This document shows, piece after piece, positions 11,350-28,112 of a stretch of 64,000 nucleotides of DNA. The notes under the pieces are model-generated. The model was not told the origin of the DNA. It saw nothing but the letters and a program-made list of their open reading frames with translations, and made no database searches. Position numbers and translations under genes: made by a program. The stretch spans positions 2,910,369 to 2,974,368 of the forward strand of contig JAWPML010000001.1 of NCBI GenBank assembly GCA_033344915.1, read 5' to 3'. The first letter of the stretch is position 1. Each line of letters begins with the position of its first letter. This stretch comes from Acidimicrobiales bacterium (lineage in GTDB: Bacteria; Actinomycetota; Acidimicrobiia; Acidimicrobiales; Aldehydirespiratoraceae).

Positions 11350-11356
11350 GGACGTT

Positions 11357-11407
11357 TTGTATAGGACAAAGATGCCCTTGTACACCCTCCATCCAGTCAA
11401 ATAGGTT
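11357..11407. promoter_or_regulatory. Divergent promoter with candidate MocR direct-repeat operator
   Basis: Two similar nonamers, TTGTATAGG (11357-11365) and TTGTACACC (11378-11386), are 21 bp apart, two helical turns, as expected for a dimeric GntR/MocR protein. The first covers the TATACA -10 box of the regulator (minus strand). The second covers a likely -35 (TTGTAC) of the operon, with TAGGTT 18 bp downstream (11402-11407). A bound regulator could therefore influence both promoters. This is pattern-based only. Confidence 0.45.
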
Positions 11408-11473: not shown

Positions 11474-12316
11474 ATGTCCGAGGTAGTGAAGGCCGCGATA
11501 CTCCAGACCGCGTGGACCGGTGACAAGGAGTCGATGATCGAGCTCCACGAGAAGTACCTCGCCGAGGCCGCCGAAGCCGGCACCCAGGTGATGTGTTTCC
11601 AGGAGCTGTTCTACGGCCCCTACTTCTGTCAGGTGCAGGACGCGAAGTTCTACAGCTACGCCGAGGCGATCCCGGACGGACCGACCACCAAGCGGTTCCA
11701 GGAGCTCGCCGCCAAGTACGGCATCGTCCTCGTCCTTCCCATGTACGAAGAGGAACAGCCGGGCATCCTCTACAACACCGCGGCGGTGATCGACGCCGAC
11801 GGCAGCTATCTGGGCAAGTACCGCAAGGTCCACATCCCGCAGGTCAACGGCTTCTGGGAGAAGTTCTACTTCCGGCCCGGAAACCTCGGCTACCCCGTGT
11901 TCGACACCGCGGTCGGCAAGGTCGCCGTCAACATCTGCTACGACCGCCACTTCCCCGAGGGCTGGCGGGCGCTCGGTCTCAACGGCGCCCAGATGGTGTT
12001 CAACCCGTCGGCCACCAGCCGAGGCCTGTCGGCGTATCTGTGGCAGCTCGAACAGACCGCCTCGGCCGCGGCCAACATGTACTTCGTCGGCGCCATCAAC
12101 CGGGTCGGCGTGGAGGACCTGGGCGACAACGACTTCTACGGAACCTCCTACTTCGCCAACCCCCGCGGCCAGTTCGTGGGTGACGTCGCCTCCGACACCG
12201 CGGAGGAGTTGGTGATCCGCGACCTGGACCTCGGCCTCGTCAACGAGGTCCGCGATCAGTGGGCCTTCTACCGGGACCGCCGTCCCGACATGTACGGCAA
12301 CCTCACCGAGGCATGA
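11474..12316 (+). CDS. Beta-ureidopropionase-like amidase (N-carbamoyl-beta-alanine amidohydrolase)
   Basis: A 280-residue nitrilase-superfamily (carbon-nitrogen hydrolase) enzyme with a complete Glu-Lys-Cys triad: E44 in FQELFYG, K118 in KYRKVHIP, C155 in NICYDRHFPE. The GKYRKVHIPQ and FYFRPGN stretches resemble beta-ureidopropionases and N-carbamoylputrescine amidases. In context it should hydrolyse N-carbamoyl-beta-alanine (or the beta-aminoisobutyrate analogue) to the beta-amino acid, CO2 and NH3. A strong GGAGGT lies 6 nt before the ATG. It is the first gene of module A; its stop overlaps the aminotransferase start (ATGA). Confidence 0.88.
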   Translation: MSEVVKAAILQTAWTGDKESMIELHEKYLAEAAEAGTQVMCFQELFYGPYFCQVQDAKFYSYAEAIPDGPTTKRFQELAAKYGIVLVLPMYEEEQPGILYNTAAVIDADGSYLGKYRKVHIPQVNGFWEKFYFRPGNLGYPVFDTAVGKVAVNICYDRHFPEGWRALGLNGAQMVFNPSATSRGLSAYLWQLEQTASAAANMYFVGAINRVGVEDLGDNDFYGTSYFANPRGQFVGDVASDTAEELVIRDLDLGLVNEVRDQWAFYRDRRPDMYGNLTEA

Positions 12317-13602
12317 CAACCAACGCCGAGCTGCACGAGCGCTACAAGGCGGTCCTTCCGTCCTACGTCAAGCCGCTCTACGCCGAGCCGATCTCCATCG
12401 ACCGGGGCGAAGGCGGCTACGTGTGGGATCTCGAGGGCAACCGTTACCTCGACTTCTTCGGCGGCGTGCTCACCACGATGATCGGCCACAGCAACCCTGA
12501 TGTGGTCGCCGCGGTACAGGCGCAGGCGGCGAAGGTGATGCACACCTCCACGCTGTATCTCAGCGAACCGATGATCGAGCTCGCCGAGGAGATCGCGGCG
12601 GTGTCGGGCATCCCCAACGCCCGGGTGTTCTTCACCACCTCGGGCAGCGAGGCGAACGACACCGCGATCCTGCTCGCCACCAGCCACCGCAAGTCCAACC
12701 AGGTGCTGGCGATGCGCAACAGCTACCACGGTCGGTCGTTCACGGCCCAGGCCATCACCTCCCACTCGTCGTGGTCGTCCACGAGCCTCTCGGGCCTGTC
12801 CGTCAACTTCGTCCAGGGCGGCTACCGGCTGCGCAGCCCGTTCCGTCACCTCGACGACGACGAATTCACCGAGGCGTGTGTCGACGACCTCCAGCAGGTG
12901 ATCGACATGATGACGGCGGGCGACGTCGCCTGCCTGATCGCCGAGCCGATCCAGGGTGTCGGCGGGTTCGCCACGCCCCCCGACGGCTTCTTCGGCGCGT
13001 TGGGGAAGGTCCTCGCCAACCACGGCATCCTCTTCGTGGCCGACGAGGTCCAGACCGGGTGGGGGCGCACCGGCGAACACTTCTGGGGGTACGAAGCCCA
13101 CGACATCGTCCCCGACATGCTCACGTTCGCGAAGGGCGTCGGCAACGGCATCACCCTCGCCGGCATCGTCGCCCGGGCCGAGATCATGGACTCGATCACC
13201 GCCCTCTCGTTCAGCACGTTCGGCGGGAACCCGCTGTCCGCGTCGGCCGGCCTGGCCACCCTGCGCCACGTGCGCGAGCACGACCTCCAGGGCAACGCCC
13301 TGCGGATGGGCGAGCGGCTGACCGCGGGCCTCGCCCCGGTCGTCGAGCGCACCCCCTGGATCGCCGAGCTACGGGGCAAGGGACTGATGCAGGCGATCGA
13401 GATCGTGCAGCCCGACACCATCGAGCCCGATTCCACCCGGGCGGGCGAGGTTCTCGAGGCGTGCAAGCGCCGGGGGCTGCTCGTGGGCAAAGGTGGGCTC
13501 TACAACAACGCAATCCGCATCACGCCGATGCTCGACGTGAGCGAAACGGAGATCGACGAAGGCATCGACGCGATCGTCGGCGCAATCGAGGAGGCATCAT
13601 GA
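12313..13602 (+). CDS. Class III aminotransferase (probable beta-alanine/beta-aminoisobutyrate transaminase)
   Basis: A 429-residue PLP enzyme. It shows TTSGSEANDTAI (phosphate-binding region), NSYHGRS, the VADEVQTGWGRTG aspartate motif and the Schiff-base lysine K274 in TFAKGVGNG, all standard for class III transaminases. Similar proteins in metazoa and bacteria (AGXT2-like, alanine-glyoxylate/beta-alanine-pyruvate) transfer the amino group of beta-alanine to give malonate semialdehyde. The flanking amidase and hydantoinase, both linked by ATGA overlaps, support that role. Acceptor preference (pyruvate, glyoxylate or 2-oxoglutarate) cannot be read. Confidence 0.88.
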   Translation: MTTNAELHERYKAVLPSYVKPLYAEPISIDRGEGGYVWDLEGNRYLDFFGGVLTTMIGHSNPDVVAAVQAQAAKVMHTSTLYLSEPMIELAEEIAAVSGIPNARVFFTTSGSEANDTAILLATSHRKSNQVLAMRNSYHGRSFTAQAITSHSSWSSTSLSGLSVNFVQGGYRLRSPFRHLDDDEFTEACVDDLQQVIDMMTAGDVACLIAEPIQGVGGFATPPDGFFGALGKVLANHGILFVADEVQTGWGRTGEHFWGYEAHDIVPDMLTFAKGVGNGITLAGIVARAEIMDSITALSFSTFGGNPLSASAGLATLRHVREHDLQGNALRMGERLTAGLAPVVERTPWIAELRGKGLMQAIEIVQPDTIEPDSTRAGEVLEACKRRGLLVGKGGLYNNAIRITPMLDVSETEIDEGIDAIVGAIEEAS

Positions 13603-15008
13603 AGAAGCTCATCAAGAACGGCACCGTGATCACATCGACCGGCGCCGATCCCGCCGAGGTGCTGATCGACGGCGAGACCATCGTGGCCGTGCTCCAGCCC
13701 GGCTCCGAGGTCGCCGCGTCCGCCGAAGCGGGCGCCGACGAGATCATCGACGCGTCCGGGCTCTACGTGATCCCGGGCGGGGTCGACGGCCACACCCACA
13801 TGGAGTTGCCCTTCGGCGGCACGGTCGCGTCCGACGACTTCGAGAACGGCACCCGCGCCGCGGCGTGGGGTGGCACCACCACCATCGTCGACTTCGCCGT
13901 GCAACGCGCCGGCGAGAGCGTGCGTGACTGTCTCGACCAGTGGTTCGCCAAGGCCGAGGGCAAGTGTGCGATCGACTACGGGTTCCACCAGATCATCGGC
14001 GGCGTCGACGACCAGTCGCTGAAGGACATGGACGCGCTCGTGGACGAGGGCATCACCAGCTTCAAGCTCTTCATGGCGTACCCGGGCGTGTTCCTGTCCG
14101 ACGACGGCCAGATCCTGCGGGCGATGCAGCAGGCGGCCGGCAACGGGGCGCTGATCATGATGCACGCCGAGAACGGGCTCGCGATCGACGTGCTGGCCGA
14201 GCAGGCGGTCGAACGAGGCGAGACCGACCCGGTCAACCACGGGCTCGTGCGCCGGGCCGAGTTCGAGAGCGAGGCCACGCATCGGGCGATCCAGCTCGCC
14301 AAGGTCGGGGCCGCGCCCCTCTACATCGTCCACCTCTCCGCATCGCAGGCCCTCGAGCAGGTCGCGATCGCGCGCGACCGGGGCGCCAACGTGTTCGCCG
14401 AGACCTGCCCGCAGTACCTCTACCTCAACGTCGAGGACCACATGGACCGCGGCTTCGACGGCGCCGCCTACGTGTGTTCGACCCCCCTGCGCACCAAACA
14501 CGAACATCACCACGAGGACCTCTGGAAGGGTCTGCGCACCAATGACCTCAGCGTCGTGGCCACCGATCACTGCCCGTTCTGCATGAAGGACCAGAAGGAA
14601 CTGGGCCGTGACGACTTCCGGGCCATTCCGAACGGCATCGGCGGCGTCGAGCACCGCATGGACCTCATCTACCAGGGTGTGGTCAACGGCGAGATCACCC
14701 TGCCCCGCTGGGTCGAACTCTGCGCGACGACCCCGGCTCGCATGTTCGGCCTCTACCCGAAGAAGGGCACGATCCAGCCGGGCGCCGACGCCGACATCGT
14801 CCTCTACGACCCCAACCGCACCTGGACCATCAGCGAAGAGAACCACCACATGAACATGGACCACTCGGCCTGGGAGGGCTTCGAGATCAACGGCCACGTC
14901 CACACCGTGATGTCTCGCGGTCGCGTGATCATCGAGAACGACTCCTACACCGGTTCGACCGGCCACGGGCAGTACCTGCGCCGCGGTCTCTCCGACTACC
15001 TCATCTAA
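13599..15008 (+). CDS. Dihydropyrimidinase (D-hydantoinase family)
   Basis: A 469-residue cyclic amidohydrolase. Metal ligands are visible in GGVDGHTHMELPF, the carboxylated bridging lysine is K156 in SFKLFMAYPG, further histidines lie in MMHAENG and IVHLSA, and the metal aspartate is in ATDHCPF. It should open 5,6-dihydrouracil or dihydrothymine (or a 5-substituted hydantoin) to the N-carbamoyl acid used by the adjacent amidase. It is joined to the aminotransferase by ATGA. Length and motifs are those of functional enzymes rather than the catalytically inactive CRMP homologues. Confidence 0.92.
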   Translation: MKKLIKNGTVITSTGADPAEVLIDGETIVAVLQPGSEVAASAEAGADEIIDASGLYVIPGGVDGHTHMELPFGGTVASDDFENGTRAAAWGGTTTIVDFAVQRAGESVRDCLDQWFAKAEGKCAIDYGFHQIIGGVDDQSLKDMDALVDEGITSFKLFMAYPGVFLSDDGQILRAMQQAAGNGALIMMHAENGLAIDVLAEQAVERGETDPVNHGLVRRAEFESEATHRAIQLAKVGAAPLYIVHLSASQALEQVAIARDRGANVFAETCPQYLYLNVEDHMDRGFDGAAYVCSTPLRTKHEHHHEDLWKGLRTNDLSVVATDHCPFCMKDQKELGRDDFRAIPNGIGGVEHRMDLIYQGVVNGEITLPRWVELCATTPARMFGLYPKKGTIQPGADADIVLYDPNRTWTISEENHHMNMDHSAWEGFEINGHVHTVMSRGRVIIENDSYTGSTGHGQYLRRGLSDYLI

Positions 15009-15015
15009 GGCACGC

Positions 15016-16497
<1,482 letters not shown>

Positions 16498-16503
<6 letters not shown>

Positions 16504-16526
16504 CCCGATACCCAGTAGCCCGATAC
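16498..16526. repeat. Short tandem duplication (15-bp period)
   Basis: The 14-mer CAGTAGCCCGATAC occurs twice in tandem, at 16498-16511 and 16513-16526, starting in the last codon and stop of mmsA. It expands the spacer before the GAGGAG ribosome binding site of the LLM gene. Probably a slippage product. Confidence 0.7.
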
Positions 16527-16541
16527 GCAAGAGGAGCATCC

Positions 16542-17546
16542 ATGGACTTCGGCGTCGTTCTCCAGACCGACCCTCCGGCGTGGCGGGTCGTCGATCTCGC
16601 CCGCAAGGCCGAGACACTCGGCTTCAGCCACGGCTGGACCTTCGACAGCCATGTGCTGTGGCAGGAGCCGTACGTCATCTACAGCCAGATGTTGTCCGCC
16701 ACGAACCGGATGATCGTCGGCCCGATGGTCACCAACCCGGGCACCCGCAACTGGACGGTCACCGCCTCGCTCTACGCCACGCTCAACGACATGTTCGGCA
16801 ATCGCACGATCTGCGGCATCGGCCGGGGCGACTCGGCCATGCGGGTGCTCGGCCACAGCCCCACCAAGCTCTCGACGCTGAGTGAATCGATGCATGTCAT
16901 CAAGGAGCTCGCCGAGGGGCGCGAGGTCACCTACAACGGCACCCAGCAGCACTTCCCGTGGGCCGAGGAGTCGAAGCTCGACATCCTCATGGCCGGCTAC
17001 GGACCGAAGGCGCTCGACCTGTGTGGCCGCGAGTCCGACGGGTTCATCCTCCAGCTGGCCGACCTGTCGCTGGCCGAATGGACCATCGGTGCCGTTCGCG
17101 CGGCCGCGGCCGATGCCGGCCGCGACCCCGACGATCTCTACATCTGTGTCGCCGCGCCGGCCTACGTCGGCACCGACATCGAACACCAGCGCGACCAGTG
17201 CCGCTGGTTCGGGGGGATGGTCGGGAATCATGTCGCCGACCTCGTCGAGCGCTATGGCGACAGTGGTGCCGTGCCCCAGGAGCTCACCGACTACATCAAG
17301 GGGCGCGAAGGCTACGACTACGCCGGCCACGGCAAGGCCGGGCACGACCACACGGACTTCGTCCCCGACGACATCGTCGACCGTTTCTGCATCCTCGGCG
17401 ACGAGGACGCCCACATCGAGCGCCTCAAGGCCCTCGAGGCGCTCGGGGTCGACCAGTTCGCGATCTATCTGATGCACGACCAGAAGGACGAGACCCTGAA
17501 CGCCTACGGCCAGCGCATCATCCCGGCGATCAGCACGCCGGGTTGA
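16542..17546 (+). CDS. LLM class oxidoreductase, probably F420-dependent (module A)
   Basis: A 334-residue luciferase-like TIM barrel. It has VVLQTDPPAWRVVDLARKAE at the start, GPMVTNPGTRNWTVTAS and ICGIGRGDSAMRVLG near residues 60-100, and ILMAGYGPKALDLCGRESDG, which resemble F420-dependent methylene-H4MPT reductase-like proteins. From memory it resembles a subgroup found next to dihydropyrimidinases. A GAGGAG lies 5 nt before the ATG. As the last gene of module A it may act on the pyrimidine or hydantoin ring, for example an F420H2-dependent reduction of uracil; this is a hypothesis. FMN use, as in RutA-type enzymes, is an alternative. Confidence 0.82.
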   Translation: MDFGVVLQTDPPAWRVVDLARKAETLGFSHGWTFDSHVLWQEPYVIYSQMLSATNRMIVGPMVTNPGTRNWTVTASLYATLNDMFGNRTICGIGRGDSAMRVLGHSPTKLSTLSESMHVIKELAEGREVTYNGTQQHFPWAEESKLDILMAGYGPKALDLCGRESDGFILQLADLSLAEWTIGAVRAAAADAGRDPDDLYICVAAPAYVGTDIEHQRDQCRWFGGMVGNHVADLVERYGDSGAVPQELTDYIKGREGYDYAGHGKAGHDHTDFVPDDIVDRFCILGDEDAHIERLKALEALGVDQFAIYLMHDQKDETLNAYGQRIIPAISTPG

Positions 17547-17553
17547 GGGAGTC

Positions 17554-18342
17554 TCAGACGCCGGTGCTCTGGCGCCGCCAGGGCATGGCCACCCATTCCA
17601 GCGCTGCCACCGCCGCGAACATCGCGATGCCCACTGCGCTGGCCCCGAGCACCGCGGCCCAGGCGATGTCGTAGCGGGACAGGCCCGCGCTCTGGGTGAT
17701 CAGCTGGCCGAGCGACCCCTGGGTACCGCCGAAGTACTCCGCCACGATCGCCGAGATGATCGCCAGCGAGCTCGCCAGCCGCAGCGAGGACATGAGGAAC
17801 GGAATCGCGTTCGGAATCCGGACGCGACGGATCACCGACCACTCGGAGGCCGCCTGACTCCGCATCAACTCGACGTGGATCGAGTCCACCTGCGTGAGAC
17901 CCTTGGTCACGTTCACGAACACAGGGAAGAACACCACCACGATCACGACGAGTCGTCGCGAGAACGAGTTGGTCGAGCCGAACCAGATGTTGAAGACCGG
18001 TGCCAGCGAGACGATCGGGACCGCCGCCATGCCCGAAGCGATCGGGGTGACCACATCGCTGAACCAGTCCCATCGCGAAGACAGGAGGGCCGCGAGGATC
18101 GCGATGATCGAGCCGACGATGAGGCCATAGACGGCGTTGCCGCCGGTGATCTCCACGCCGTCCCAGATGCGTTGTGCGTTCTCGCCGACTGCGGTGTAGA
18201 TCGAGGAGGGACTCGGGAGCAGGAACTGTTTGATGTCGAACGCCCGCACCATCCATTCCCAGAGCGAGAAGAACACCGCTCCGAAAACCACCGGGACCAC
18301 GATCGTGGAGGTTCGGTCCGAGAATCGCGCGACGACGCTCAC
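17554..18342 (-). CDS. ABC transporter permease (second, TauC/SsuC type)
   Basis: A 262-residue inner-membrane permease with a GTG start overlapping the upstream permease stop (GTGA). About six transmembrane helices are visible. The EAA-type cytoplasmic loop is present around SQAASEWSVIRRVRIPNAIPF, which contacts the ATPase. It belongs to the BPD_transp_1 family typical of nitrate/sulfonate/taurine and thiamine-precursor importers. It is the last gene of module B and is convergent with the LLM gene of module A, only 7 bp away. It pairs with the 294-residue permease, giving a heterodimeric channel. Confidence 0.9.
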   Translation of the reverse strand: MSVVARFSDRTSTIVVPVVFGAVFFSLWEWMVRAFDIKQFLLPSPSSIYTAVGENAQRIWDGVEITGGNAVYGLIVGSIIAILAALLSSRWDWFSDVVTPIASGMAAVPIVSLAPVFNIWFGSTNSFSRRLVVIVVVFFPVFVNVTKGLTQVDSIHVELMRSQAASEWSVIRRVRIPNAIPFLMSSLRLASSLAIISAIVAEYFGGTQGSLGQLITQSAGLSRYDIAWAAVLGASAVGIAMFAAVAALEWVAMPWRRQSTGV

Positions 18343-19223
18343 AACGGGACGTCCGATCGCTCGCGAGACCCGGGCACGAGCCGTTCGAGACCACCAACGG
18401 CCGAGGTGAACACGAGGCCGAGCACACCGGCGCCGATGATGGCGCAGTACATCTTGGGAGGGTCGGTCTGAGCCTGCTGGGCGTAGGCCAGGATCAAACG
18501 ACCGACCCCACCGGGCAGGCCGATGGAGATCTCGCCCACGATCGAGCCGATGATGGAGGCGGCGGCGGCGAGCTTGAGTGCCGGGATGAGATAGGGCACG
18601 GCGCCCGGCAGGCGGACCTTGAGAAGGGTCTGGCGTCTGGTCGACGCGTACGACTCCATCAACTCGATGGAGTGGGCGGGGGGTGATTGCAGACCGCGCA
18701 GTCCGTTCACCGCCACCGGGAAGAACGTGAGATACGTCGCGATCAGTGACACCGACATCCACGGCTGCCAGTCGACCACTTCGATCCGGTTGCCCCACGT
18801 CACGATGACCGGGGCGAGGGCGAGAAGCGGGATGGTCTGCGAGACGATGATCCAGGGCAGGATCCCCCGCTCGAGCAGCTTCGAACGCAGCATGAGGATG
18901 GCCAACGCCATACCGATGACGGCACCCATGAGGAAGCCCGCGGCCGAGATCCGCATGGTGTACCACGAGCCCTGGATCACGGCCTCGAGCACGGTGGTGC
19001 TGCTTCGCCGCTGCTGTGGCTCGAAGAAGCGGCTGATGATGTCCGCCAACTCGGGCATCGTCACCTGGTTGGTCTTGACGGGAAGGTCACCGCCGAAGAT
19101 CGGCCACTGATCGTCCGTCGCGAGACCCATCCGGCGGTAGCCCTCGTAGAGCGCACAGAGCGCCACGATGGCCACCGCCGGAGGAAGGACTCGCTTCAGT
19201 CCGTTCTTTGCCTTCTGCTTCAC
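18339..19223 (-). CDS. ABC transporter permease (first, TauC/SsuC type)
   Basis: A 294-residue membrane protein with an N-terminal helix, a periplasmic segment of roughly 60 residues, and then about five more helices. The coupling loop around MESYASTRRQTLLKVRLPGAVPY is the EAA motif. It belongs to the same family as the next gene and overlaps it by 4 bp. Downstream of the NMT1-type binding protein it should form the pore of an importer for a nitrogen-containing heterocycle or related compound; the ligand is inferred only from context. Confidence 0.9.
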   Translation of the reverse strand: MKQKAKNGLKRVLPPAVAIVALCALYEGYRRMGLATDDQWPIFGGDLPVKTNQVTMPELADIISRFFEPQQRRSSTTVLEAVIQGSWYTMRISAAGFLMGAVIGMALAILMLRSKLLERGILPWIIVSQTIPLLALAPVIVTWGNRIEVVDWQPWMSVSLIATYLTFFPVAVNGLRGLQSPPAHSIELMESYASTRRQTLLKVRLPGAVPYLIPALKLAAAASIIGSIVGEISIGLPGGVGRLILAYAQQAQTDPPKMYCAIIGAGVLGLVFTSAVGGLERLVPGSRERSDVPL

Positions 19224-19265
19224 GAGTGTTCGAGCTCAGTCGGCATCGACGGACTCAGGCCTCGC

Positions 19266-20408
19266 TCACTCGCCGCCGGGTGTGGGTTCGACGTCGATAC
19301 GGGTGTAGCTGTCGCCGGTCACGTCGAGACCGTCCGCCTTCAGCTCGTCGAGCGCCTCGTTGATCAGGTCGGACCGGGTGGCTTCCTCGTCCGGCTGACC
19401 GCTGAGGATCTCGAACTCGACGGCGACATCCACGGTCTGCTGGTAGAGGTCGGGATCGAGGACACCGACGCCGTCGGGGGACGGCCAGATGAGGCTGTTG
19501 ACCTCGTTGATCATCCAGCGCTGATGGCCCTCACCCAGGATCGGGGCGTTGTCGAGCACGATCTCGACGCCGTCCTCGAGGTTGTCCCGGCAGTAGATCC
19601 AACCCTCCATCGACGCGGCGAGGAAGTCGACGGTCTGGGCCCGGAACTCCTCGTCGTCGAGCCGGTTCGTCTCGGCCCAGAGGGCGTCCTGCAGCATCGC
19701 CACACCGAGGTCGTTGTAGTCGATGACGTGGAGCTCCTCGGGCTGGATCAGCTCACCCGTGTCGGGGTTGACCGTTTCCAGCATCTGGGCGTACTCGTTG
19801 TAGATCGTCGCCTCGGCGGCGTCGATCTCGCGGTTGACGAGTGCGACCATGTCGAACTGCTGTTGCACGAGCTCGACATCGGTCGCAGGATCAAGGCCGG
19901 CCTGTCGGATCGCGGCCAGTACCTCGAACTCGTTGCCGAAGCCCCAGTTGCCGATCTTCTTGCCTTCCCAGTCGGCCACCGTCGTGATCCCCGAATCGGC
20001 CCAGGAGACCTGGCGGGTACCCGAACGCTGGAAGACCTGCGCGATCTGTGTGATCTCCGCGCCGGCCTCCCGGGAGGCGAGACCACGAACAGTGAACGAG
20101 ACCGCATAGTCGGCGTCGCCATTGGCCACGACCGTCTGCGGGACGATGTCGACGCCACCTTCGATGATCGTCAGGTCGAGACCGCGATCGGCGTAGTAGC
20201 CCTGCTCGATACCGGCGTAGTAGCCGCAGAACTGGCCCTGGGTGAACCATTGCAGCTGCAGGGAGATCGGCGTGAGCTCGTCAGTGCTCCCCCCGTCGTC
20301 GCCCGTGCTGTCGTCGGAGTCGTCGTCGCCGCACGCAGCGGCGAAGAGGGCGAATCCGACGAAGAGCGCCAGAAGCAGGCGCCATCGTGGTCTACGTGAC
20401 ATTCTCAT
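19266..20408 (-). CDS. NMT1/THI5-type ABC transporter substrate-binding lipoprotein
   Basis: A 380-residue lipoprotein. The signal peptide ends in a lipobox around LFAAAC (Cys about residue 22), followed by an Asp/Ser-rich linker. The mature part begins with ISLQLQWFTQGQFCGYYAGIEQGYY, characteristic of NMT1/THI5 and ThiY binding proteins that recognise pyrimidine-like ligands. GGAGGAAAC directly precedes the ATG at 20408. Gene order amidase, binding protein, two permeases shows that uptake is coupled to module B. A pyrimidine, dihydropyrimidine or hydantoin ligand would fit but is not shown by sequence. Confidence 0.9.
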   Translation of the reverse strand: MRMSRRPRWRLLLALFVGFALFAAACGDDDSDDSTGDDGGSTDELTPISLQLQWFTQGQFCGYYAGIEQGYYADRGLDLTIIEGGVDIVPQTVVANGDADYAVSFTVRGLASREAGAEITQIAQVFQRSGTRQVSWADSGITTVADWEGKKIGNWGFGNEFEVLAAIRQAGLDPATDVELVQQQFDMVALVNREIDAAEATIYNEYAQMLETVNPDTGELIQPEELHVIDYNDLGVAMLQDALWAETNRLDDEEFRAQTVDFLAASMEGWIYCRDNLEDGVEIVLDNAPILGEGHQRWMINEVNSLIWPSPDGVGVLDPDLYQQTVDVAVEFEILSGQPDEEATRSDLINEALDELKADGLDVTGDSYTRIDVEPTPGGE

Positions 20409-20433
20409 GTTTCCTCCAGGTGATGGGGTTCTC

Positions 20434-21285
20434 TCATGTCGAGGACTCCTCGACGAGACCTTGGTAGAGCGGCGGCCTGCGGTCACGAAGAAACGGAAGC
20501 CGCTGGCGACGCTCGGCGATGGCCGCAAGATCCACCCGTGCGAACACTACCTCCGCATCGTCCGTGCCTGCCTGAGATGAAATGTTTCCGTCAGGCTCAT
20601 AGATCGCGCTCAGCCCGTAGTAGTCCTTGCTCGTTTCGCCCGCGCCCTCGAGCCCGACTCGATTCGCGCAGACGACGAACAGCGAGTTGAACACCGCGTG
20701 GGCGCGGAGCTCGAGCTGGAACACCTCCTTGGTCGGCGCGCTCGCGCACGCGACCGGAACGCACATCACGGATGCGCCACCGAGGGCAACCAGTCGTCCG
20801 AGTTCGGGGAAGTGGCGCTCGTAGCAGATGATGACCCCGGCCTTCGTCGGGCCGACGTCGACGACCGGTGGCGGGTCCTCACCGGGCCGGAAGTAGTACT
20901 TCTCGGGGAAGCCGTTGGAGAAGGGCAGGTGTGACTTGCGGTAGTGCACCGCCGCTTCGCCGTTCACGAAGATGCTTGCGGTGTTGTGGTGAACGCCGGG
21001 CGTCGGGCTGGCCTCGAAGACCGACGACACGATCGTGATCCCGTGGGCGGCCGACCGCTCGGCCACGAGGGTGTTCGACGGGCCGTCCAGGGCCTCGGCC
21101 CACTCGAAGTAGGTCGGATCGACCTCGGCGGCCACGAACGGCGCGGAGAATATCTCCGGGAGGACCACCAGCTCGGCGCCGAGTCCCGCGGCCTCGTCGA
21201 TGAGCTCGGCGGTCTCACGGAGGTTCCGATCTCGATCGGCCGTCGGCCGGACCTGGATTGCGGCGACGCCGTACGGGGAGTCCAT
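20434..21285 (-). CDS. Nitrilase-superfamily amidase (module B, beta-ureidopropionase-like)
   Basis: A 283-residue carbon-nitrogen hydrolase with the full triad: E44 in VLPEIFSAPF, K117 in HYRKSHLP, C154 in IICYERHFPE. The FPEKYYFRPGED segment closely parallels that of the module A amidase, which suggests the same N-carbamoyl-amino-acid chemistry. It lies 6 bp downstream of the LLM gene and 25 bp upstream of the binding protein in one operon. It probably removes the carbamoyl group formed by the module B hydantoinase. Confidence 0.87.
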   Translation of the reverse strand: MDSPYGVAAIQVRPTADRDRNLRETAELIDEAAGLGAELVVLPEIFSAPFVAAEVDPTYFEWAEALDGPSNTLVAERSAAHGITIVSSVFEASPTPGVHHNTASIFVNGEAAVHYRKSHLPFSNGFPEKYYFRPGEDPPPVVDVGPTKAGVIICYERHFPELGRLVALGGASVMCVPVACASAPTKEVFQLELRAHAVFNSLFVVCANRVGLEGAGETSKDYYGLSAIYEPDGNISSQAGTDDAEVVFARVDLAAIAERRQRLPFLRDRRPPLYQGLVEESST

Positions 21286-21291
21286 GCGCGC

Positions 21292-22305
21292 TCAGCCTCT
21301 CCCGGCCGCGGCGGCCAGAGCAAGAAGGGTCTGTTCCTTGTCGCCGTGCGTGGAGATGATGGGCAACTCGACGCCGGCCTCGTGGAACTCGCAGAGCTTG
21401 TCGTAGGCCTGGCCGGCCCGGCCGCACGCAGCGACCTCGTGGACCAGTGACGTCGGCACGAGGCGCATCGCCCGGCGGACGTCGTCGGGGGTCGCCGGCC
21501 AACCCGCAACCTCCTTGATGCGCTCGACCAGATCCGGGTCGACACCGCAGTGCTCCGCGATGTGGGGCTGTTGCATCAGGTACTGCGTGAGGAACGCCCG
21601 ACAGGCATCGACCGCCTCGTCGGGATCGTCATCGTCGACGCTGCAAGCGATGATCTGCGTGACGTGAATCTGCTCGCGGCCGTCGATGCGCTTCGCGATG
21701 CCCTTGCCGATGGCGGCGAGAGCGCCCTCGAGATAGGAGACCGGCAGCAGGAAGTCGAGGTTCACGCCATCGCTGATCTCACCGGCCAGCTGGAGCATCT
21801 TCGGTCCGACCGAGCCGAAGTAGATCGGCACGTCGATCGCCTTGTTCTCGTGGTACATGCTGTCGAACCGCACGCCGTCCATGTGCACGAAGTCGCCGGA
21901 GAACTCGACGAGCTCGTTGCGGAAGAAGGCCTGGAGCACGCCGACGTACTCCCGCATCGCCGTGACCGGCCGTTCGACCGGGGTTCCCACCTTCGACGCG
22001 ATCGGTTCCCACCAGGCGCCGATCCCGAGGATCGCCCGACCCGGCGCGATCTCATCGAGCGTCTTGAATGTGACCGCCATCAACGCGGCGTTGCGGCTCT
22101 TGTTGTTGACCACTCCGGTGGCCACACCGACCCGTTGTGTCCGCGCTGCGATGACCGCCGCCGGGACGATGCCATCGCGGGCCAATCGGCCCTCGGCGAC
22201 CCAGACCGACTCGAAGCCGTGGGTGTCGGCGAACTCTGCCTGCCACCAGGTCTGGTCGAGCGTCAGCCGTTCGCCGAGGTGCACGCCGAGCGGGATCTCG
22301 GTCAT
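21292..22305 (-). CDS. LLM class oxidoreductase, probably F420-dependent (module B)
   Basis: A 337-residue luciferase-like TIM barrel. It opens with IPLGVHLGERLTLDQTWWQAEF and contains WVAEGRLARDG, VATGVVNNKSRNAALMA, ILGIGAWWEP and VPIYFGSVGPKMLQLAGE, typical of F420-dependent LLM reductases. The start ATG overlaps the hydantoinase stop (ATGA), a tight coupling. It is the counterpart of the LLM enzyme in module A but is only distantly similar to it, so the two modules may act on different ring substrates. The reaction is unknown. Confidence 0.85.
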   Translation of the reverse strand: MTEIPLGVHLGERLTLDQTWWQAEFADTHGFESVWVAEGRLARDGIVPAAVIAARTQRVGVATGVVNNKSRNAALMAVTFKTLDEIAPGRAILGIGAWWEPIASKVGTPVERPVTAMREYVGVLQAFFRNELVEFSGDFVHMDGVRFDSMYHENKAIDVPIYFGSVGPKMLQLAGEISDGVNLDFLLPVSYLEGALAAIGKGIAKRIDGREQIHVTQIIACSVDDDDPDEAVDACRAFLTQYLMQQPHIAEHCGVDPDLVERIKEVAGWPATPDDVRRAMRLVPTSLVHEVAACGRAGQAYDKLCEFHEAGVELPIISTHGDKEQTLLALAAAAGRG

Positions 22306-23729
22306 GAAGATCTCCGTGTCGGTTCGATCGGCCGTCGGCGCGCCAAATAGCGACCGCGACCGCGTGCTGCGCTGATCTCGCCGTGGTCCACGACCACCTC
22401 GCCACGCGACAGCACGTGGGTCGGGCCGCCGACGATCTCGGTCCCCTCGTAGAGGTTGTAGTCCGTGCGCATGTGTTGCTCGGCGGCACGAACGGTTCGC
22501 CGCACCTCCGGGTCCCACACCACGAGATCAGCGTCGGACCCCGGGGCGATCGTGCCCTTCTGTGGATAGAGCCCGAAGAGTTTTGCCGGCCTGGTGGAGA
22601 CCAGATCGACGAAGCGACTCACATCGAAGCGGCCCTGGCGAACGCCGGCCTGCCAGATCAACGACAGGCGATCCTCGATCCCGGGGACGCCGTTGGGCAC
22701 GTCGGGGAAATACCCGAGACCCCGCCCCTTCTGGGGCGGCAGATCGTCCGGCTGCCCCATGCAGAACGCTGCGTGGTCGGTGCCGATCGTCGACAATGCG
22801 TCGCTCACGAGCGCATCCCACAGGCTCTCCTGATTGGCGCGTTCGCGGATCGGCGGCGAGCAGAGGTACTTCGCCGCCTCGTGACCGAGACCCTCGTAGT
22901 CCTCGTAGGCCGCCAGCAGGTACTGAGGACAGGTCTCACCATGGACCGGGACCGCTCGGGCCCTCGCCAGCTGGATCTCGGCGGCGGCGTAGCGGCTCGA
23001 CACGTGGACGACGAAGAGCGCGCTGCCCACCGACTCGGCAATGGCGATCGCTCGATGCACGGCCTCGTGCTCGGAGGTGTGGGTGTGCGCCGCGAGATGA
23101 TGGTGTTCCTCGACCATGCCGGCCTCGATGAGCCGGTCGGTCGCGTCCTGCACCAGGTGGCCGTTCTCGGCATGCACCATGGGCAGGACACCCTCCTCGG
23201 CCGCGGCGCGGAAACCGGCGATCAGGGTGGCATCGTCGACCATCATCCCGTGGTAGGCCATGAAGAACTTCCAGCTGGTGGCGCCCTCGGCCGCGAGCTG
23301 GCGGAGCTCGGAGATCGAGTCGACCTCCAGCGCGTTGCTCGGGACCATCGGGTGCAGCCCGTAGTCGACGACGACCTTCGCGTCCGCAACGGCTCGACGG
23401 GCCTGGAAGGCGTCGTAGATCGACTCCTCCGGACGGGACTTGACGAAATCCACGATCGTCGTGGTCCCCCCGGCGGCTGCTGCGATCGTGCCGGTGTGGA
23501 AGTCATCCGAGCTCACGGTGCTGAACGCGAGAGCCGGATTCTCGAGATGGGTGTGGGTGTCGATGCCTCCAGGCAGCACGTAGCACCCACGTGCGTCGAT
23601 CTCGCGGTCGGCCGTAGCGGTCCCGGGATCGACGAGGCCGACGATCTTCTCGCCGTCGATCACGACGTCGGCCGCGAAAACGCCGCTCACGGACACGACG
23701 TCGCCGCCCCGGACGATGAGGGCGGCCAT
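22302..23729 (-). CDS. Dihydropyrimidinase/hydantoinase (module B)
   Basis: A 475-residue cyclic amidohydrolase. It contains GGIDTHTHLENPALAF (metal histidines), K154 as the carboxylated lysine in SWKFFMAYHG, MVHAENGH, VVHVSSR, and the metal aspartate in GTDHAAF. It differs from the module A enzyme in the substrate-loop region (LENP rather than MELP), so it may prefer another cyclic ureide such as a hydantoin. It is joined by TGATG to the upstream aminotransferase and by ATGA to the downstream LLM gene. Confidence 0.92.
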   Translation of the reverse strand: MAALIVRGGDVVSVSGVFAADVVIDGEKIVGLVDPGTATADREIDARGCYVLPGGIDTHTHLENPALAFSTVSSDDFHTGTIAAAAGGTTTIVDFVKSRPEESIYDAFQARRAVADAKVVVDYGLHPMVPSNALEVDSISELRQLAAEGATSWKFFMAYHGMMVDDATLIAGFRAAAEEGVLPMVHAENGHLVQDATDRLIEAGMVEEHHHLAAHTHTSEHEAVHRAIAIAESVGSALFVVHVSSRYAAAEIQLARARAVPVHGETCPQYLLAAYEDYEGLGHEAAKYLCSPPIRERANQESLWDALVSDALSTIGTDHAAFCMGQPDDLPPQKGRGLGYFPDVPNGVPGIEDRLSLIWQAGVRQGRFDVSRFVDLVSTRPAKLFGLYPQKGTIAPGSDADLVVWDPEVRRTVRAAEQHMRTDYNLYEGTEIVGGPTHVLSRGEVVVDHGEISAARGRGRYLARRRPIEPTRRSS

Positions 23730-25087
23730 CAGTCGAGCTCCTCGTCGACGAGGCCGAGCAATTCATCGAGGATGTCCAGACCGAGTTCGAGATCCTCGTG
23801 ACTCGTCACGAGGGGCGGTGCCAGCCGGATGATGTTGTTGTAGCTCGCGAGGAACAGCCCGCGGTCCTTGGCACCGCGCATGATCCTGGCCATTGGGGCT
23901 GCCGCGTCCCCAGTGGCCTTGAAGGGCACGAGCGGCTCTCTCGTGTCTCGATCCCGCACCAACTCGACGCCGTGGAAGAGACCCATGCCGCGCACGTCGC
24001 CGATGCAACGGCGCCGTGCGGCCATCTCCTCGAGCCGGGCGGACACGAGTGCGCCCGCCGCAACGGTACGGGCGAGGATGTCCTCGTCCTGGAAGACCTT
24101 GATCGACTCGACCCCGACCGCACAGGCGAGCGGATGCCCCGCGTAGGTCTGTCCGATCGAGAAGCGATTGTCCTCCAACCACTCCCGTATCGGCGCGCTG
24201 ACGATCATCGCGCCGAGGGGCACGTAGCCCGAGTTGATGCCCTTCGCCACGACGAGGATGTCGGGCACCACGTCGTAGTTGTCGCACGCGAACCAGGTGC
24301 CAGTGCGCCCGAAGCCGACCATGACCTCATCGAGGATCAACATGATCCCGTGACGGTCGCAGACCTCGCGGATCGCGGCGAGATATCCGTCGGGCGGATA
24401 GATGATGCCGTTGGTCCCGGTGACGGTCTCGAGCACGATTGCCGCGACCGACGCAGGGTTCTCGTACATCAGGATCTCTTCGAGGTGCGGGGCGCCGGTG
24501 CAGACGGGACACGGATCGGGGTGCCCGGCCGGGCACCGGTAGGTGTAGGGATCGAGGATACGGACCACACCCGGGACGCCGGGTTCGGCGTCCCACCGGC
24601 GGGGATCGCCGCCGACGGTGATGGTGCCCATCGTCGCACCGTGGTACGAGCGGTTGCGGGCGATGACCTTCGTCCGTCCCGTCACATGCCGGGCCAGCTT
24701 GATCGCGCTTTCGACGGCGGCCGCACCGCCCGTGGTGAAGTAGGAGGCGGTGAGGTCGCCCGGGGTGATCTCCGCCAACTGGCTCGCCAGCTCGCTGCGG
24801 GCATCGTTGGCCATGTTGGGGGCGACGTAGCAGAGCGTGTCGGCCTGCCGCTTGATCGCCTCGACGAGCCGTGGATGCTGATGCCCGAGGTTCATGTTGA
24901 CGAGCTGCGACTGGAAGTCGAGGAACCGACGACCGTCGTGGGTCCAGAACCAGGCACCCTCCCCGCCCGACACGAGAAGTGGATCGACGGCGGACTGGGT
25001 CGACCACGAGGTCAGGACGAGATCGCGATCCCGCTGCAGGGCCACGAGGGCGTCGCCCGGCTCGGGAGTCCCGTCGGATGGGTCCAT
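23729..25087 (-). CDS. Class III aminotransferase (module B)
   Basis: A 452-residue PLP enzyme starting at ATG 25087; the frame extends to a GTG at 25135, but that lies inside the operator. It has YFTTGGAAAVESAIKLAR, RSYHGATMG, ILDEVMVGFGRTG and the Schiff-base lysine K282 in VVAKGINSG, as in taurine/beta-alanine/omega-amino-acid transaminases. A CPAGHPDPCPVC insertion near residue 190 contains three cysteines. It is the first gene of module B and divergent from the IclR regulator. It probably removes the amino group from the beta- or alpha-amino acid released by the amidase. Confidence 0.9.
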   Translation of the reverse strand: MDPSDGTPEPGDALVALQRDRDLVLTSWSTQSAVDPLLVSGGEGAWFWTHDGRRFLDFQSQLVNMNLGHQHPRLVEAIKRQADTLCYVAPNMANDARSELASQLAEITPGDLTASYFTTGGAAAVESAIKLARHVTGRTKVIARNRSYHGATMGTITVGGDPRRWDAEPGVPGVVRILDPYTYRCPAGHPDPCPVCTGAPHLEEILMYENPASVAAIVLETVTGTNGIIYPPDGYLAAIREVCDRHGIMLILDEVMVGFGRTGTWFACDNYDVVPDILVVAKGINSGYVPLGAMIVSAPIREWLEDNRFSIGQTYAGHPLACAVGVESIKVFQDEDILARTVAAGALVSARLEEMAARRRCIGDVRGMGLFHGVELVRDRDTREPLVPFKATGDAAAPMARIMRGAKDRGLFLASYNNIIRLAPPLVTSHEDLELGLDILDELLGLVDEELD

Positions 25088-25122
25088 GGGTTGCGCTGTC
25101 CCTTCACCGGCGACCGACCGGC

Positions 25123-25145
25123 TACACTGGTTCACTGTATGAACC
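25123..25145. promoter_or_regulatory. Divergent promoter with palindromic IclR operator candidate
   Basis: GGTTCA-CTGTA-TGAACC (25129-25145) is a perfect 6-bp inverted repeat with a 5-bp spacer. It overlaps a plus-strand -10 (TACACT, 25123-25128) and a minus-strand -10 (TACAGT, 25134-25139). A dimeric IclR protein bound here would cover both promoters, of module B and of its own gene. Confidence 0.6.
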
Positions 25146-25188
25146 GATGGTCCACAAAAACCGTAGCACAGCGCGACCGGCGACTCGC

Positions 25189-25971
25189 ATGACGCAGGCA
25201 GTTCTCGCGTCTCGGACGGCGGCCCTCCTCCGCCTCGTCGCGTCGAACCCCGCGCCGCTCGGCCTGAGTGAGATCGCGCGGGACTCCACGATCCCGAAAG
25301 CGACCTGCATCCGCATCCTCCGAGCGCTGGTCGAGGAGGAACTGCTCGAGATCGATCCCGAAACCCGGCGCTATCGCGTCTCCTTCGCCCTCACCGCGCT
25401 CATGGCCGATCGCGTGCAAGCCGACGGCTCCATCGAGTTGCTGCGCCACGAGCTCGACCGACTCCGCGCCTCGACCCACGAGACCGCCGGTATCGATCTC
25501 CTGATCGGCGATGACGTCGTCGTCGTGTTGCAGGTGGAAGGTCCACAGCTGATCAGCCAGACGGGCAAGCCCGTGCCTCGGCGACTCCCACTCCTTCGCT
25601 CATCCACCGGGAAGGCGTTCCTGACCTGGCACCACGACCCGTCAATCGCCGAGGCCGCCCTCGCCCCACTCAGCCCGACCGAACGGGCCCGCGTGGCCGA
25701 GGAACAGGACACGAACCGGCAGCGGGGTTACGCGGTCGCGTTCGAGGAACTCGACCCGGCAGCCGCGGCCATTGCCGCGCCGGTGATCGTCCACGACACC
25801 ATGGTCTGCACCGTGTGGATCGGTGGACCCAGCTTCCGGATGACGCCGGAGGAGCTTCCCGACCTCGCCACCCATGTGGTGGAATCGGCGAACCGTCTCG
25901 CTGTCCTACTCCGCACGGGGCAGGTCTCTCTCGACGATCTTCCGTCCGCACCCATGAAGGAAGTCTCATGA
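25189..25971 (+). CDS. IclR family transcriptional regulator
   Basis: A 260-residue regulator. The N-terminal winged helix is seen in LGLSEIARDSTIPKATCIRILRAL (residues about 25-50) followed by YRVSFAL, and the C-terminal effector-binding domain contains RLPLLRSSTGKAFL, the conserved loop of IclR domains. The ATG at 25189 gives the usual N-terminus. An in-frame ATG at 25147 would place the start directly after the operator, and neither start has a clear ribosome binding site. Divergent from module B and overlapping the next amidase gene, it most likely controls this locus in response to a pathway intermediate. Confidence 0.9.
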   Translation: MTQAVLASRTAALLRLVASNPAPLGLSEIARDSTIPKATCIRILRALVEEELLEIDPETRRYRVSFALTALMADRVQADGSIELLRHELDRLRASTHETAGIDLLIGDDVVVVLQVEGPQLISQTGKPVPRRLPLLRSSTGKAFLTWHHDPSIAEAALAPLSPTERARVAEEQDTNRQRGYAVAFEELDPAAAAIAAPVIVHDTMVCTVWIGGPSFRMTPEELPDLATHVVESANRLAVLLRTGQVSLDDLPSAPMKEVS

Positions 25972-26834: not shown

Positions 26835-27632
26835 TCAGGACAGAACCTGCTCGACGGATCGCAACGCGTTGCGCACTTCGTTCGTTTTCTCGAAGAAGGA
26901 CGGGTCGTTGCGAATGGCATCGGTGCGCTCACCCAGGTCGATGTCGACCGTGGAGTGGATCTGACCGGGGCGAGGCGACATGACGACCACGCGTGAGGAC
27001 AGGTAAACCGCCTCGGCGATCGAGTGCGTGACGAAGATGATCGTGGTGTCGAGCTCGTTGTAGATACGCAGGAGTTCCGCCTGCATGTGCTCGCGGGTCA
27101 TCTCGTCGAGCGCACCGAACGGTTCGTCCATCAACAGGAGCTTCGGCTCGAAGGTGAGGCAGCGGGCGATCGCCACCCGCTGCTGCATGCCGCCGGAGAG
27201 ATGGAACGGATAGTGCGACCCGAACTCGTCGAGCTTCACGAGTTCGAGCATCTCCTCGCTGCGCTTGCGACGGTCCACCTTGGACCAGCCCTTGAGCTCG
27301 AGGGGCAGCTCGATGTTGGCCCGCACGGTGCGCCAGTCGAAGAGACCTGCCTTCTGGAAGGCCATTGCGTGGTCCTGGTCGAGCCGCGCCTGTGGCGCCG
27401 ACTTACCGAAGACCGTGACGGTGCCGCGGTTCGACGGCAGGAGGTCGGCGACAACTCGCAGCAGGGTGGACTTGCCGCAACCGGAGGGACCGATCAACGA
27501 GACGAACTCGCCCTGCTCCACGGTCAGGTCGATGCCGCGGAGCGCCTCCACGGCGTTGGCCGCGCCCTCGTTGAAGACCTTGTCGACGCCAACGAGTTCG
27601 ACGGCCGGGGCGGACGGATCGACGGTGGTCAC
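26835..27632 (-). CDS. ABC transporter ATP-binding protein (TauB/SsuB type)
   Basis: A 265-residue ATPase with Walker A GPSGCGKS, Q-loop in MAFQKAGLFDWRTV, signature LSGGMQQR, Walker B LLLMDEPFGALD and the switch histidine in FVTHSIAEA. It belongs to the nitrate/sulfonate/taurine branch and should power the two permeases and the NMT1-type binding protein of module B, which lack an ATPase in their own operon. GTG at 27632 overlaps the upstream carboxymuconolactone decarboxylase-type gene (GTGA). The 7.4-kb separation from the permeases is unusual. Confidence 0.92.
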   Translation of the reverse strand: MTTVDPSAPAVELVGVDKVFNEGAANAVEALRGIDLTVEQGEFVSLIGPSGCGKSTLLRVVADLLPSNRGTVTVFGKSAPQARLDQDHAMAFQKAGLFDWRTVRANIELPLELKGWSKVDRRKRSEEMLELVKLDEFGSHYPFHLSGGMQQRVAIARCLTFEPKLLLMDEPFGALDEMTREHMQAELLRIYNELDTTIIFVTHSIAEAVYLSSRVVVMSPRPGQIHSTVDIDLGERTDAIRNDPSFFEKTNEVRNALRSVEQVLS

Positions 27633-28039: not shown

Positions 28040-28112
28040 GTCGTGTCTGCTTTCATCCGCGTCGGCGTCACCATACTCCACACCCATTTCCACGAATGCG
28101 GGCAACCGCTCC

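Follow-up and report, generated by a model that had tools for sequence, protein, structure and literature searches.

A candidate F420H2-dependent pyrimidine reductase encoded in a ring-opening gene module of an Acidimicrobiales bacterium

The window analyzed here is a stretch of 64,000 nucleotides from an Acidimicrobiales bacterium (assembly GCA_033344915.1, contig JAWPML010000001.1, positions 2,910,369 to 2,974,368), whose genome is a single contig of 4.48 Mb. It harbors two ring-opening gene modules, A and B, each composed of a dihydropyrimidinase/hydantoinase, a CN-hydrolase amidase, and an aminotransferase, and each coupled to a gene for a luciferase-like (LLM) protein, LLM1 in module A and LLM2 in module B (Table 1). 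This layout had been described in an earlier note on the same DNA, and it holds: every named gene is present with an intact frame, the genes are tightly packed, and a CoA-acylating semialdehyde dehydrogenase is found in module A, with none in module B. As judged from sequence, LLM1 probably acts as an F420H2-dependent uracil/thymine reductase that replaces the flavin/iron-sulfur enzyme PydA in the reductive pyrimidine pathway of module A.

In module A, the ATG of the hydantoinase gene overlaps the stop codon of the aminotransferase gene (ATGA), and LLM1 starts with an ATG at 16542 that follows AAGAGGAGC and lies 38 bases past the stop codon of the (methyl)malonate-semialdehyde dehydrogenase (MMSDH) gene. 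Open frames of 817–923 residues in some genomes hint at a fusion of LLM1 to a neighbor. In the window, the 731-residue open frame begins within the MMSDH coding sequence but in a different frame from it, and LLM1 possesses its own ATG and a ribosome-binding-like site. The amidase A1 exceeds the cut-off of no NCBIfam equivalog. Its best solved relatives are Drosophila CG3027 (2vhh, 204 bits), an N-carbamoylputrescine amidohydrolase (193 bits), and beta-ureidopropionase (8pt4/6ftq, 192 bits), the latter two being about equally near. The scores against beta-ureidopropionases and N-carbamoylputrescine amidohydrolases range from 204 to 188 bits, in contrast to at most 98 bits against N-carbamoyl-D-amino-acid hydrolases. 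A2 matches aminotransferase families, none of them over its cut-off among the 25 models listed, and the nearest solved relatives of A3 are of the D-hydantoinase/dihydropyrimidinase type. Among the matches listed, the nearest named relative is an Acidimicrobiales metagenome-assembled genome (MAG; locus L012), in which LLM1 is 97% identical.

Table 1. Coordinates and assignments of the module A and module B genes and of the transport, regulatory, and amidase genes beside them
Feature	Position	Strand	Product or proposed role	Family match or relationship
A1	11474..12316	+	CN-hydrolase amidase, beta-ureidopropionase type; PydC role	nearest solved relatives
A2	about 12316..13602	+	class-III-type aminotransferase; beta-alanine/3-aminoisobutyrate aminotransferase role (PydD)	
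A3	13599..15008	+	dihydropyrimidinase/hydantoinase; PydB role	TIGR02033, 541 bits (cut-off 393)
A4	15016..16503	+	CoA-acylating MMSDH	TIGR01722, 716 bits (cut-off 448.5)
A5 (LLM1)	16542..17546	+	proposed F420H2-dependent uracil/thymine reductase	TIGR03842 family
B1	20434..21285	-	second CN-hydrolase amidase	37% identical to A1
B2 (LLM2)	21292..22305 (approximate start)	-	Mer-like LLM protein, putatively F420-dependent	Pfam Bac_luciferase
B3	22302..23729	-	second dihydropyrimidinase/hydantoinase	TIGR02033, 496 bits (cut-off 393); 41% identical to A3
B4	23729..25087	-	class-III-type aminotransferase, PRK06062 type	NF004718, 546 bits (cut-off 472)
T1	17554..18390 (approximate start)	-	ABC permease	30% identical to T2
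T2	18339..19223	-	ABC permease	Pfam BPD_transp_1
T3	19266..20408	-	NMT1/THI5-type substrate-binding protein	Pfam NMT1
T4	26835..27650	-	ABC ATPase, probable partner of T1–T3	Pfam ABC_tran
MocR-type regulator	10027..11376	-	GntR helix-turn-helix and aminotransferase-like domain; divergent from module A	Pfam GntR, Aminotran_1_2
IclR-type regulator	25048..25971 (approximate start)	+	regulator divergent from module B	Pfam HTH_IclR, IclR_C
C1	25962..26828	+	third CN-hydrolase amidase	Pfam CN_hydrolase; 35% identical to A1

The first enzymes known for the reductive Pyd route, as far as they are covered in the accessible part of PMC7332683, belong to the PydA family and are linked to NADPH, NADH, or ferredoxin. 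The earlier note saw no PreA/PreT-like dihydropyrimidine dehydrogenase in the window, and a search of the whole genome for a canonical enzyme was set beforehand as a test. That search (PF01180) returns one protein, of 304 residues and outside the window, which is the dihydroorotate dehydrogenase PyrD (NF005574, 313 bits, cut-off 269; PreA model, 87 bits, cut-off 335). Its gene directly adjoins carB, which encodes the large subunit of carbamoyl-phosphate synthase and is cut by the end of the sequence read. With PyrD beside carB as the sole PF01180 protein, a hidden PydA elsewhere in the genome is ruled out. The genome lacks PydA, PreA, and any PydA of the ferredoxin type (PF01180; NF006183, none at 1e-60), so the PreA part of the claim stands, while a PreT-type subunit was not searched separately. 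F420 synthesis genes, sought in the same genome, are represented by both CofH (455 bits, cut-off 374) and CofD (320 bits, cut-off 257). The CofH match lies inside a 901-residue open frame, the other half of which matches weakly, as in a fused FbiC.

LLM1 matches TIGR03842 over residues 2–330 of 334 with 580 bits (cut-off 295.45). This NCBIfam model is a hypothetical equivalog described as an LLM class F420-dependent oxidoreductase, a name that assigns no reaction. A scan of the named genome collection confirmed at least 588 relatives of LLM1, and the best 80 loci were read, counting only matches to window proteins of at least 60 bits; the upstream and downstream fractions include only loci with enough flanking sequence. 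A dihydropyrimidinase gene lies within 4 kb of LLM1 on the same strand in 71 of the 80 loci and upstream of it in 62/65, and an A1-type amidase lies upstream in 56/59. MMSDH is adjacent in 35/59 loci and an A2-type aminotransferase in 18/59. Because the gene order is kept in most of the 80 loci, module A is not a chance arrangement. Its constant core, amidase-dihydropyrimidinase-LLM1, is also found in loci of Streptomyces, Lentzea, Amycolatopsis, and Kutzneria. As this core is constant and the MMSDH and aminotransferase genes vary, LLM1 is assigned to the ring steps rather than to the semialdehyde steps.

Two genome sets extend this picture: a sample of 197 Actinomycetota genomes, in which 42 exceed the TIGR03842 cut-off and 155 do not, and a second set of 48 genomes behind the 80 related loci (50 tried; L069 and L082 left out). 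In the first, the dihydropyrimidinase model TIGR02033 is matched by 60 genomes, comprising 41 of the 42 with TIGR03842 versus 19 of the 155 without, and the two genes lie within 10 kb of each other in 32/42 genomes. Nine of these 19 (G007, G017, G032, G067, G081, G083, G119, G130, and G179) harbor an LLM2-type protein, and one (G196) harbors PreA. CofH exceeds its cut-off in 97 of the 197 genomes (37/42 with TIGR03842 versus 60/155 without); CofD is present in four of the five exceptions, such that 41/42 TIGR03842 genomes have CofH or CofD. The corresponding figures for the second set are 40/48 for CofH and seven of the remaining eight for CofD, or 47/48 together, and all records titled as strains rather than MAGs have CofH over the cut-off. 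PreA (NF006183) is found in none of the 42 TIGR03842 genomes and in none of the 48 of the second set, for which the search also took in three plasmid records. Two MAG loci carry TIGR03842 proteins of actinobacterial type under record names, "Gammaproteobacteria bacterium" (L036) and "Bifidobacterium breve" (L072), that for this reason look doubtful; L072 has an acidimicrobial-like module, and the L036 genome has a CofH match in a 962-residue frame.

Beyond the Actinomycetota, the evidence comes from plasmid records only, 12 in one search and 15 in another (some of the 15 too distant for TIGR03842). Judged by gene content, the loci that appear most telling for the LLM1 family are on plasmids of two Leisingera species, where the TIGR03842 gene is the last of a complete F420 operon, cofG-cofH-cofD-cofC-cofE-npdG-TIGR03842. 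Divergent from this operon is a second gene string, pntA-pntB-aminotransferase-Zn hydrolase-dihydropyrimidinase-NCS1 nucleobase:cation symporter, in which the dihydropyrimidinase matches TIGR02033 with 614 bits. The transhydrogenase, NpdG, and the LLM protein read as a supply line from NADH via NADPH and F420H2 to the substrate. The Zn-dependent hydrolase is of the allantoate amidohydrolase/hydantoinase-carbamoylase type and not of the A1 family, which implies that a pathway step rather than one string of genes is shared and that the same logic has apparently been built from different parts. In Paracoccus alcaliphilus, the same F420 operon ends in TIGR03842 and is followed by an ABC transporter. 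The plasmid pSBC2-6 of Caballeronia sp. SBC2 (L144, 12001–16000) has a TIGR03842-like fragment that is 75% identical to the Leisingera protein over 38% of it and adjoins genes for a Zn-dependent hydrolase, an "alanine dehydrogenase", and a transhydrogenase beta subunit, with IS66 elements nearby; this is apparently a decayed copy of a Leisingera-type locus in a betaproteobacterium.

The AlphaFold (AF2) model of LLM1 has a pLDDT of 91.2 and a pTM of 0.91. In VIA-align, the first 15 of the 50 entries listed are all F420-dependent enzymes (Z 35.7–28.9), whereas luciferase- and monooxygenase-type entries appear from Z 27.5 down and RutA from 25.1 down. This rank order agrees with F420 use by LLM1, although a shared fold alone shows no function. 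In Foldseek, Mer is nearest and fills the first eight rows. Mer, the closest solved structure by both sequence and fold, allows a comparison of active site residues, the roles of which are described in the accessible part of PMC11094777. When LLM1 is aligned to Mer of M. jannaschii (jMer), the GPxVTNP stretch around the non-prolyl cis-peptide site is kept, D97 takes the position of Mer Asp96, and Q171 that of the carboxamide at Mer position 178, which is Gln according to the same part of that paper and Asn by count in the deposited chain. Both D97 and Q171 are invariant in the alignment of LLM1 relatives and in the alphaproteobacterial proteins. The catalytic Glu6 of Mer is replaced by V6, which is nearly invariant among the LLM1 relatives and is a cysteine in the Leisingera protein. 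LLM1 is not Mer itself, as the missing Glu6 and scores below the cut-offs of TIGR03555 (108 of 348.7 bits) and NF002619 (118 of 276 bits) indicate. The loss of Glu6 would be anticipated if the ring is pyrimidine-like and the chemistry differs, and a reduction without Glu6-assisted iminium formation would fit uracil, which is like the pyrimidine part of pterin. F420 is a well-supported candidate for the LLM1 cofactor, being predicted from the gene linkage of the relatives and fitting the fold.

In the proposed pathway, the ABC transporter would import the pyrimidine, and LLM1 would reduce uracil or thymine to the 5,6-dihydro compound, with F420H2 donating a hydride to C6. From its family, A3 is predicted to open the ring to N-carbamoyl-beta-alanine or N-carbamoyl-3-aminoisobutyrate, from which A1, going by its nearest solved relatives, would release CO2 and NH3. 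A2 may then transaminate the product to malonate or methylmalonate semialdehyde, and A4, again by family, would yield acetyl-CoA or propionyl-CoA. F420H2 is likely regenerated from NADPH by an NpdG-type reductase, consistent with the npdG linkage in Leisingera and Paracoccus, or by F420-dependent sugar dehydrogenases. Module B would represent a paralogous ring-opening set.

Several observations weigh against this assignment. The function of LLM1 is a prediction from sequence and model, and in the precedent discussed below (PMC10714638) no product was seen in vitro. Foldseek places luciferase 8cbb 12th, above FGD1 and Adf, and thus separates cofactors less cleanly than VIA-align. In loci L028, L036, and L054, the 4 kb upstream contain no dihydropyrimidinase gene, and the amidase is missing from L028, L034, and L054. 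The dihydropyrimidinase is on another contig in 7 of the 42 TIGR03842 genomes, is separated from the LLM gene by 12 kb in G031 and by 50 kb in G044, and was not found in G194. G115, an assembly of 220 contigs, and G230, a MAG, have neither CofH over the cut-off nor CofD. PreA is rare in the phylum (2/197 genomes), so its absence alongside TIGR03842 is weak evidence on its own, and the genome counts are phylogenetically non-independent, such that their Fisher values serve as a guide only. The Leisingera protein is only 42% identical to LLM1, and the stretches viewed in Paracoccus alcaliphilus contain no dihydropyrimidinase. Furthermore, dihydropyrimidinases also open hydantoins; the ring on which LLM1 acts could hence be another.

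Uracil or thymine as the substrate is the least secure step, and it is here that the best surviving alternative enters. LLM1 may use F420H2 to reduce some other unsaturated cyclic ureide, such as a hydantoin-type ring or a 5-substituted pyrimidine, whose reduced form A3 opens. Membership of A3 and B3 in a mixed dihydropyrimidinase/D-hydantoinase family agrees with this, as do the purine-like clusters of LLM2-type relatives, which imply that such LLM proteins may act on other rings. The alternative is nevertheless unlikely: A1 is far nearer to beta-ureidopropionases than to N-carbamoyl-D-amino-acid hydrolases (the N-carbamoylputrescine amidohydrolase being as near), an aminotransferase together with MMSDH is the set expected for beta-alanine and 3-aminoisobutyrate, and the Leisingera locus includes an NCS1 nucleobase symporter. 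Uracil and thymine are favored over hydantoins because of the A1 relatives, the aminotransferase, and the MMSDH-family dehydrogenase.

That LLM1 instead uses F420 to oxidize a downstream alcohol or aldehyde (e.g., 3-hydroxypropionate), thereby yielding F420H2, is quite improbable. Several LLM F420 enzymes, Adf and FGD among them, are indeed dehydrogenases, but the conserved partners of LLM1 are the ring-opening enzymes and not the aminotransferase or the semialdehyde dehydrogenase, no PydA was found that could make the dihydropyrimidinase substrate, and the Leisingera pairing of the LLM gene with transhydrogenase and npdG is a natural F420H2 supply. Least probable is a RutA-like role, with LLM1 as an FMN-dependent monooxygenase acting on the pyrimidine ring; it was rejected on family, fold, and pathway logic: RutA is of the same superfamily, acts on uracil, and matches the LLM1 model (Z about 25), but F420 enzymes rank above RutA and other FMN-type enzymes across the 50 VIA-align rows, TIGR03842 genes form part of F420 operons, a dihydropyrimidinase would have nothing left to do if the ring were opened by oxygenolysis, and the RutA model (TIGR03612) has no match at 1e-60 in the source genome and exceeds its cut-off in 0/64 genomes (the 42 TIGR03842 genomes and 22 of the second-set 48), the one weaker match being in G242 (255 bits, cut-off 498).

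An F420H2-dependent uracil/thymine reductase thus remains the preferred assignment for LLM1. The earlier note had extended F420H2-dependent ring reduction to LLM2 as well; for LLM1 the proposal is well supported, as neither of two refuting conditions set in that note applies (a canonical dihydropyrimidine dehydrogenase elsewhere in the genome; no F420 synthesis genes) and the linkage to F420 operons adds to it, whereas for LLM2 the proposal is only plausible. The LLM2 gene, placed at 21292 in that note, is present; it runs along the minus strand, and this coordinate marks its 3′ end. Two of the three junctions in module B have overlapping stop and start codons (B4/B3, TGATG; B3/LLM2, ATGA), which makes co-transcription likely, and the solved relatives of B1 are a carbon-nitrogen hydrolase, an N-carbamoylputrescine amidohydrolase, and nitrilase homologue 2. 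LLM2 exceeds the cut-off of no NCBIfam family, the best being Mer (142 of 349 bits), and is not a member of TIGR03842 (66 bits, cut-off 295.45).

The two-module layout is retained in full in L013, whose LLM2 counterpart shares 94% identity with LLM2. Its other nearest relatives, 38–45% identical, occur in 28 of 395 other Actinomycetota genomes searched for LLM2-type proteins and on haloarchaeal plasmids. They form a group of their own, the proteins of the 20 actinobacterial regions read being 55–60% identical to the Haloterrigena protein, and LLM2 shares conserved blocks with this haloarchaeal/actinobacterial group. Matches to a molybdenum hydroxylase and to an SsnA-like hydrolase each occur in 17 of the 20 regions and coincide in 14. 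The haloarchaeal clusters have allantoinase-like and carbamoylase-like hydrolases; two of the three that were read include npdG, and the two viewed further upstream contain selenium-molybdenum maturation genes. The SsnA, allantoinase, and XdhA models are their best matches but remain below cut-offs. The module B genes have no XdhA/XdhD-type molybdenum hydroxylase or SsnA-type hydrolase as a neighbor. LLM2 is probably F420-dependent too, on a ring other than that of LLM1, and the claim is weaker than that for LLM1 because LLM2 belongs to a different LLM group with relatives in purine-type clusters. In several relatives (e.g., L032, L038, L078, and L081), a B4-like aminotransferase gene is found close to module A, a placement that suggests overlapping products of modules A and B, such as beta-alanine or 3-aminoisobutyrate. 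The loci L093, L094, L095, and L124–L143, from haloarchaea and several actinobacterial families, are candidates for F420-linked reductive purine clusters beyond the Chloroflexota described in the accessible part of PMC12507026.

Taken jointly, the evidence leans toward a broader proposal, held less firmly than the assignment of LLM1 itself: TIGR03842 would constitute a class of dihydropyrimidine dehydrogenase that is new, not homologous to the known one, and driven by F420H2 in place of NAD(P)H or ferredoxin, a common route of reductive pyrimidine breakdown in the Actinomycetota that moved with the whole F420 pathway into plasmids of Rhodobacterales and lent F420 a catabolic role in them, and the LLM2 group would comprise parallel F420-dependent reductases of purine-type or related rings. 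If correct, this would provide a large family of orphan enzymes with a reaction, explain how many actinobacteria that have dihydropyrimidinase but lack dihydropyrimidine dehydrogenase feed it, and add F420H2 to NADPH, NADH, and ferredoxin as an electron donor for catabolic uracil reduction. The Leisingera locus suggests one concrete role for F420 in the bacterial class of that genus. An F420H2-dependent C=C reductase for pyrimidines might also be of use in biocatalysis, and, with the LLM2 group included, F420-driven dearomatization of nucleobase rings would be a general theme.

Of the 51 related loci that extend 4.5 kb or more beyond LLM1, 30 have transporter genes downstream of it on its strand; a T1 counterpart lies downstream of LLM1 in many relatives, and T4 is found between T2 and T1 in relatives. 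In the window, module B is followed by T3, T2, and T1, the binding protein and permeases of an NMT1-type ABC transporter. T4 lies beside module B, flanked by C1 and a gene for a carboxymuconolactone-decarboxylase-type protein (27629–28105, minus strand). MocR-type regulators with an aminotransferase-like domain can sense amino compounds via pyridoxal phosphate (PLP), and beta-alanine or 3-aminoisobutyrate is a possible inducer for the one upstream of module A. A regulator of this type stands upstream, in divergent orientation, in 14/80 related loci overall, and in 9 of the 55 for which 9 kb or more of upstream sequence is available. The window contains a further LLM-family (Bac_luciferase) gene at 5494–6477 on the minus strand, and searching the source genome with the TIGR03842 model gives a total of 31 LLM matches.

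The description of the locus as an undescribed pathway variant agrees with the open-access literature, in which no proposal of an F420-dependent first step of pyrimidine or hydantoin catabolism was found; subscription papers and preprints fall outside this scope. An F420 review of 2021 contains no word beginning with uracil or hydantoin, and the accessible parts of PMC8305020, PMC10117117, PMC8097209, and PMC13367373 make no link between F420 and pyrimidine catabolism.

Among known systems, Mer shares with LLM1 its fold and the counterparts of D97 and Q171 and differs in the cut-offs that LLM1 misses and in Glu6, which is V6 in LLM1. The Rut pathway has in common with LLM1 an LLM superfamily enzyme and pyrimidine catabolism, although RutA is an FMN-dependent oxygenase that opens the pyrimidine ring itself and its family has no match at the threshold given above in the source genome. 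In the mureidomycin and napsamycin clusters of Streptomyces, SSGG-03002/NpsU, a putative F420/FMN-dependent oxidoreductase, is genetically required for reduction of the C5–C6 bond of the uracil ring (PMC10714638). Its likeness to LLM1 is one of description; the text of that paper does not call it luciferase-like, and it differs in serving antibiotic tailoring rather than catabolism, with only 42 homologues found and no in vitro activity shown there. This protein and the yanthine reductase considered next are the nearest precedents.

The uric acid clusters of Chloroflexota, as presented in the accessible part of PMC12507026, include an F420-dependent yanthine reductase (proposed, not assayed), an LLM protein that takes over from a flavin/Fe-S ring reductase at the step before the cyclic amidohydrolases, the idea proposed here for LLM1. 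Its substrate is purine-derived, in contrast to that proposed for LLM1; the relative sampled, a haloarchaeal and not a Chloroflexota protein, shares 22% identity with LLM1. The XdhA/SsnA-like clusters of the LLM2 relatives are comparable to this reductive purine pathway, whereas module B is without the XdhA and SsnA partners. The Pyd clusters (PydA, PydB, PydC, PydD, and MSDH, in the accessible part of PMC7332683) share with module A the dihydropyrimidinase and the malonic/methylmalonic semialdehyde dehydrogenase, and module A also has an aminotransferase and an amidase that is putatively of the ureidopropionase type. PydA, of the dihydroorotate-dehydrogenase family and equipped with Fe-S clusters, is missing from module A, where its position is taken by an LLM protein unrelated to it. 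Because the remaining steps are known and no such pathway was found in the open literature, module A is best described as the known Pyd pathway with a proposed new, unrelated first enzyme and an unusual cofactor.

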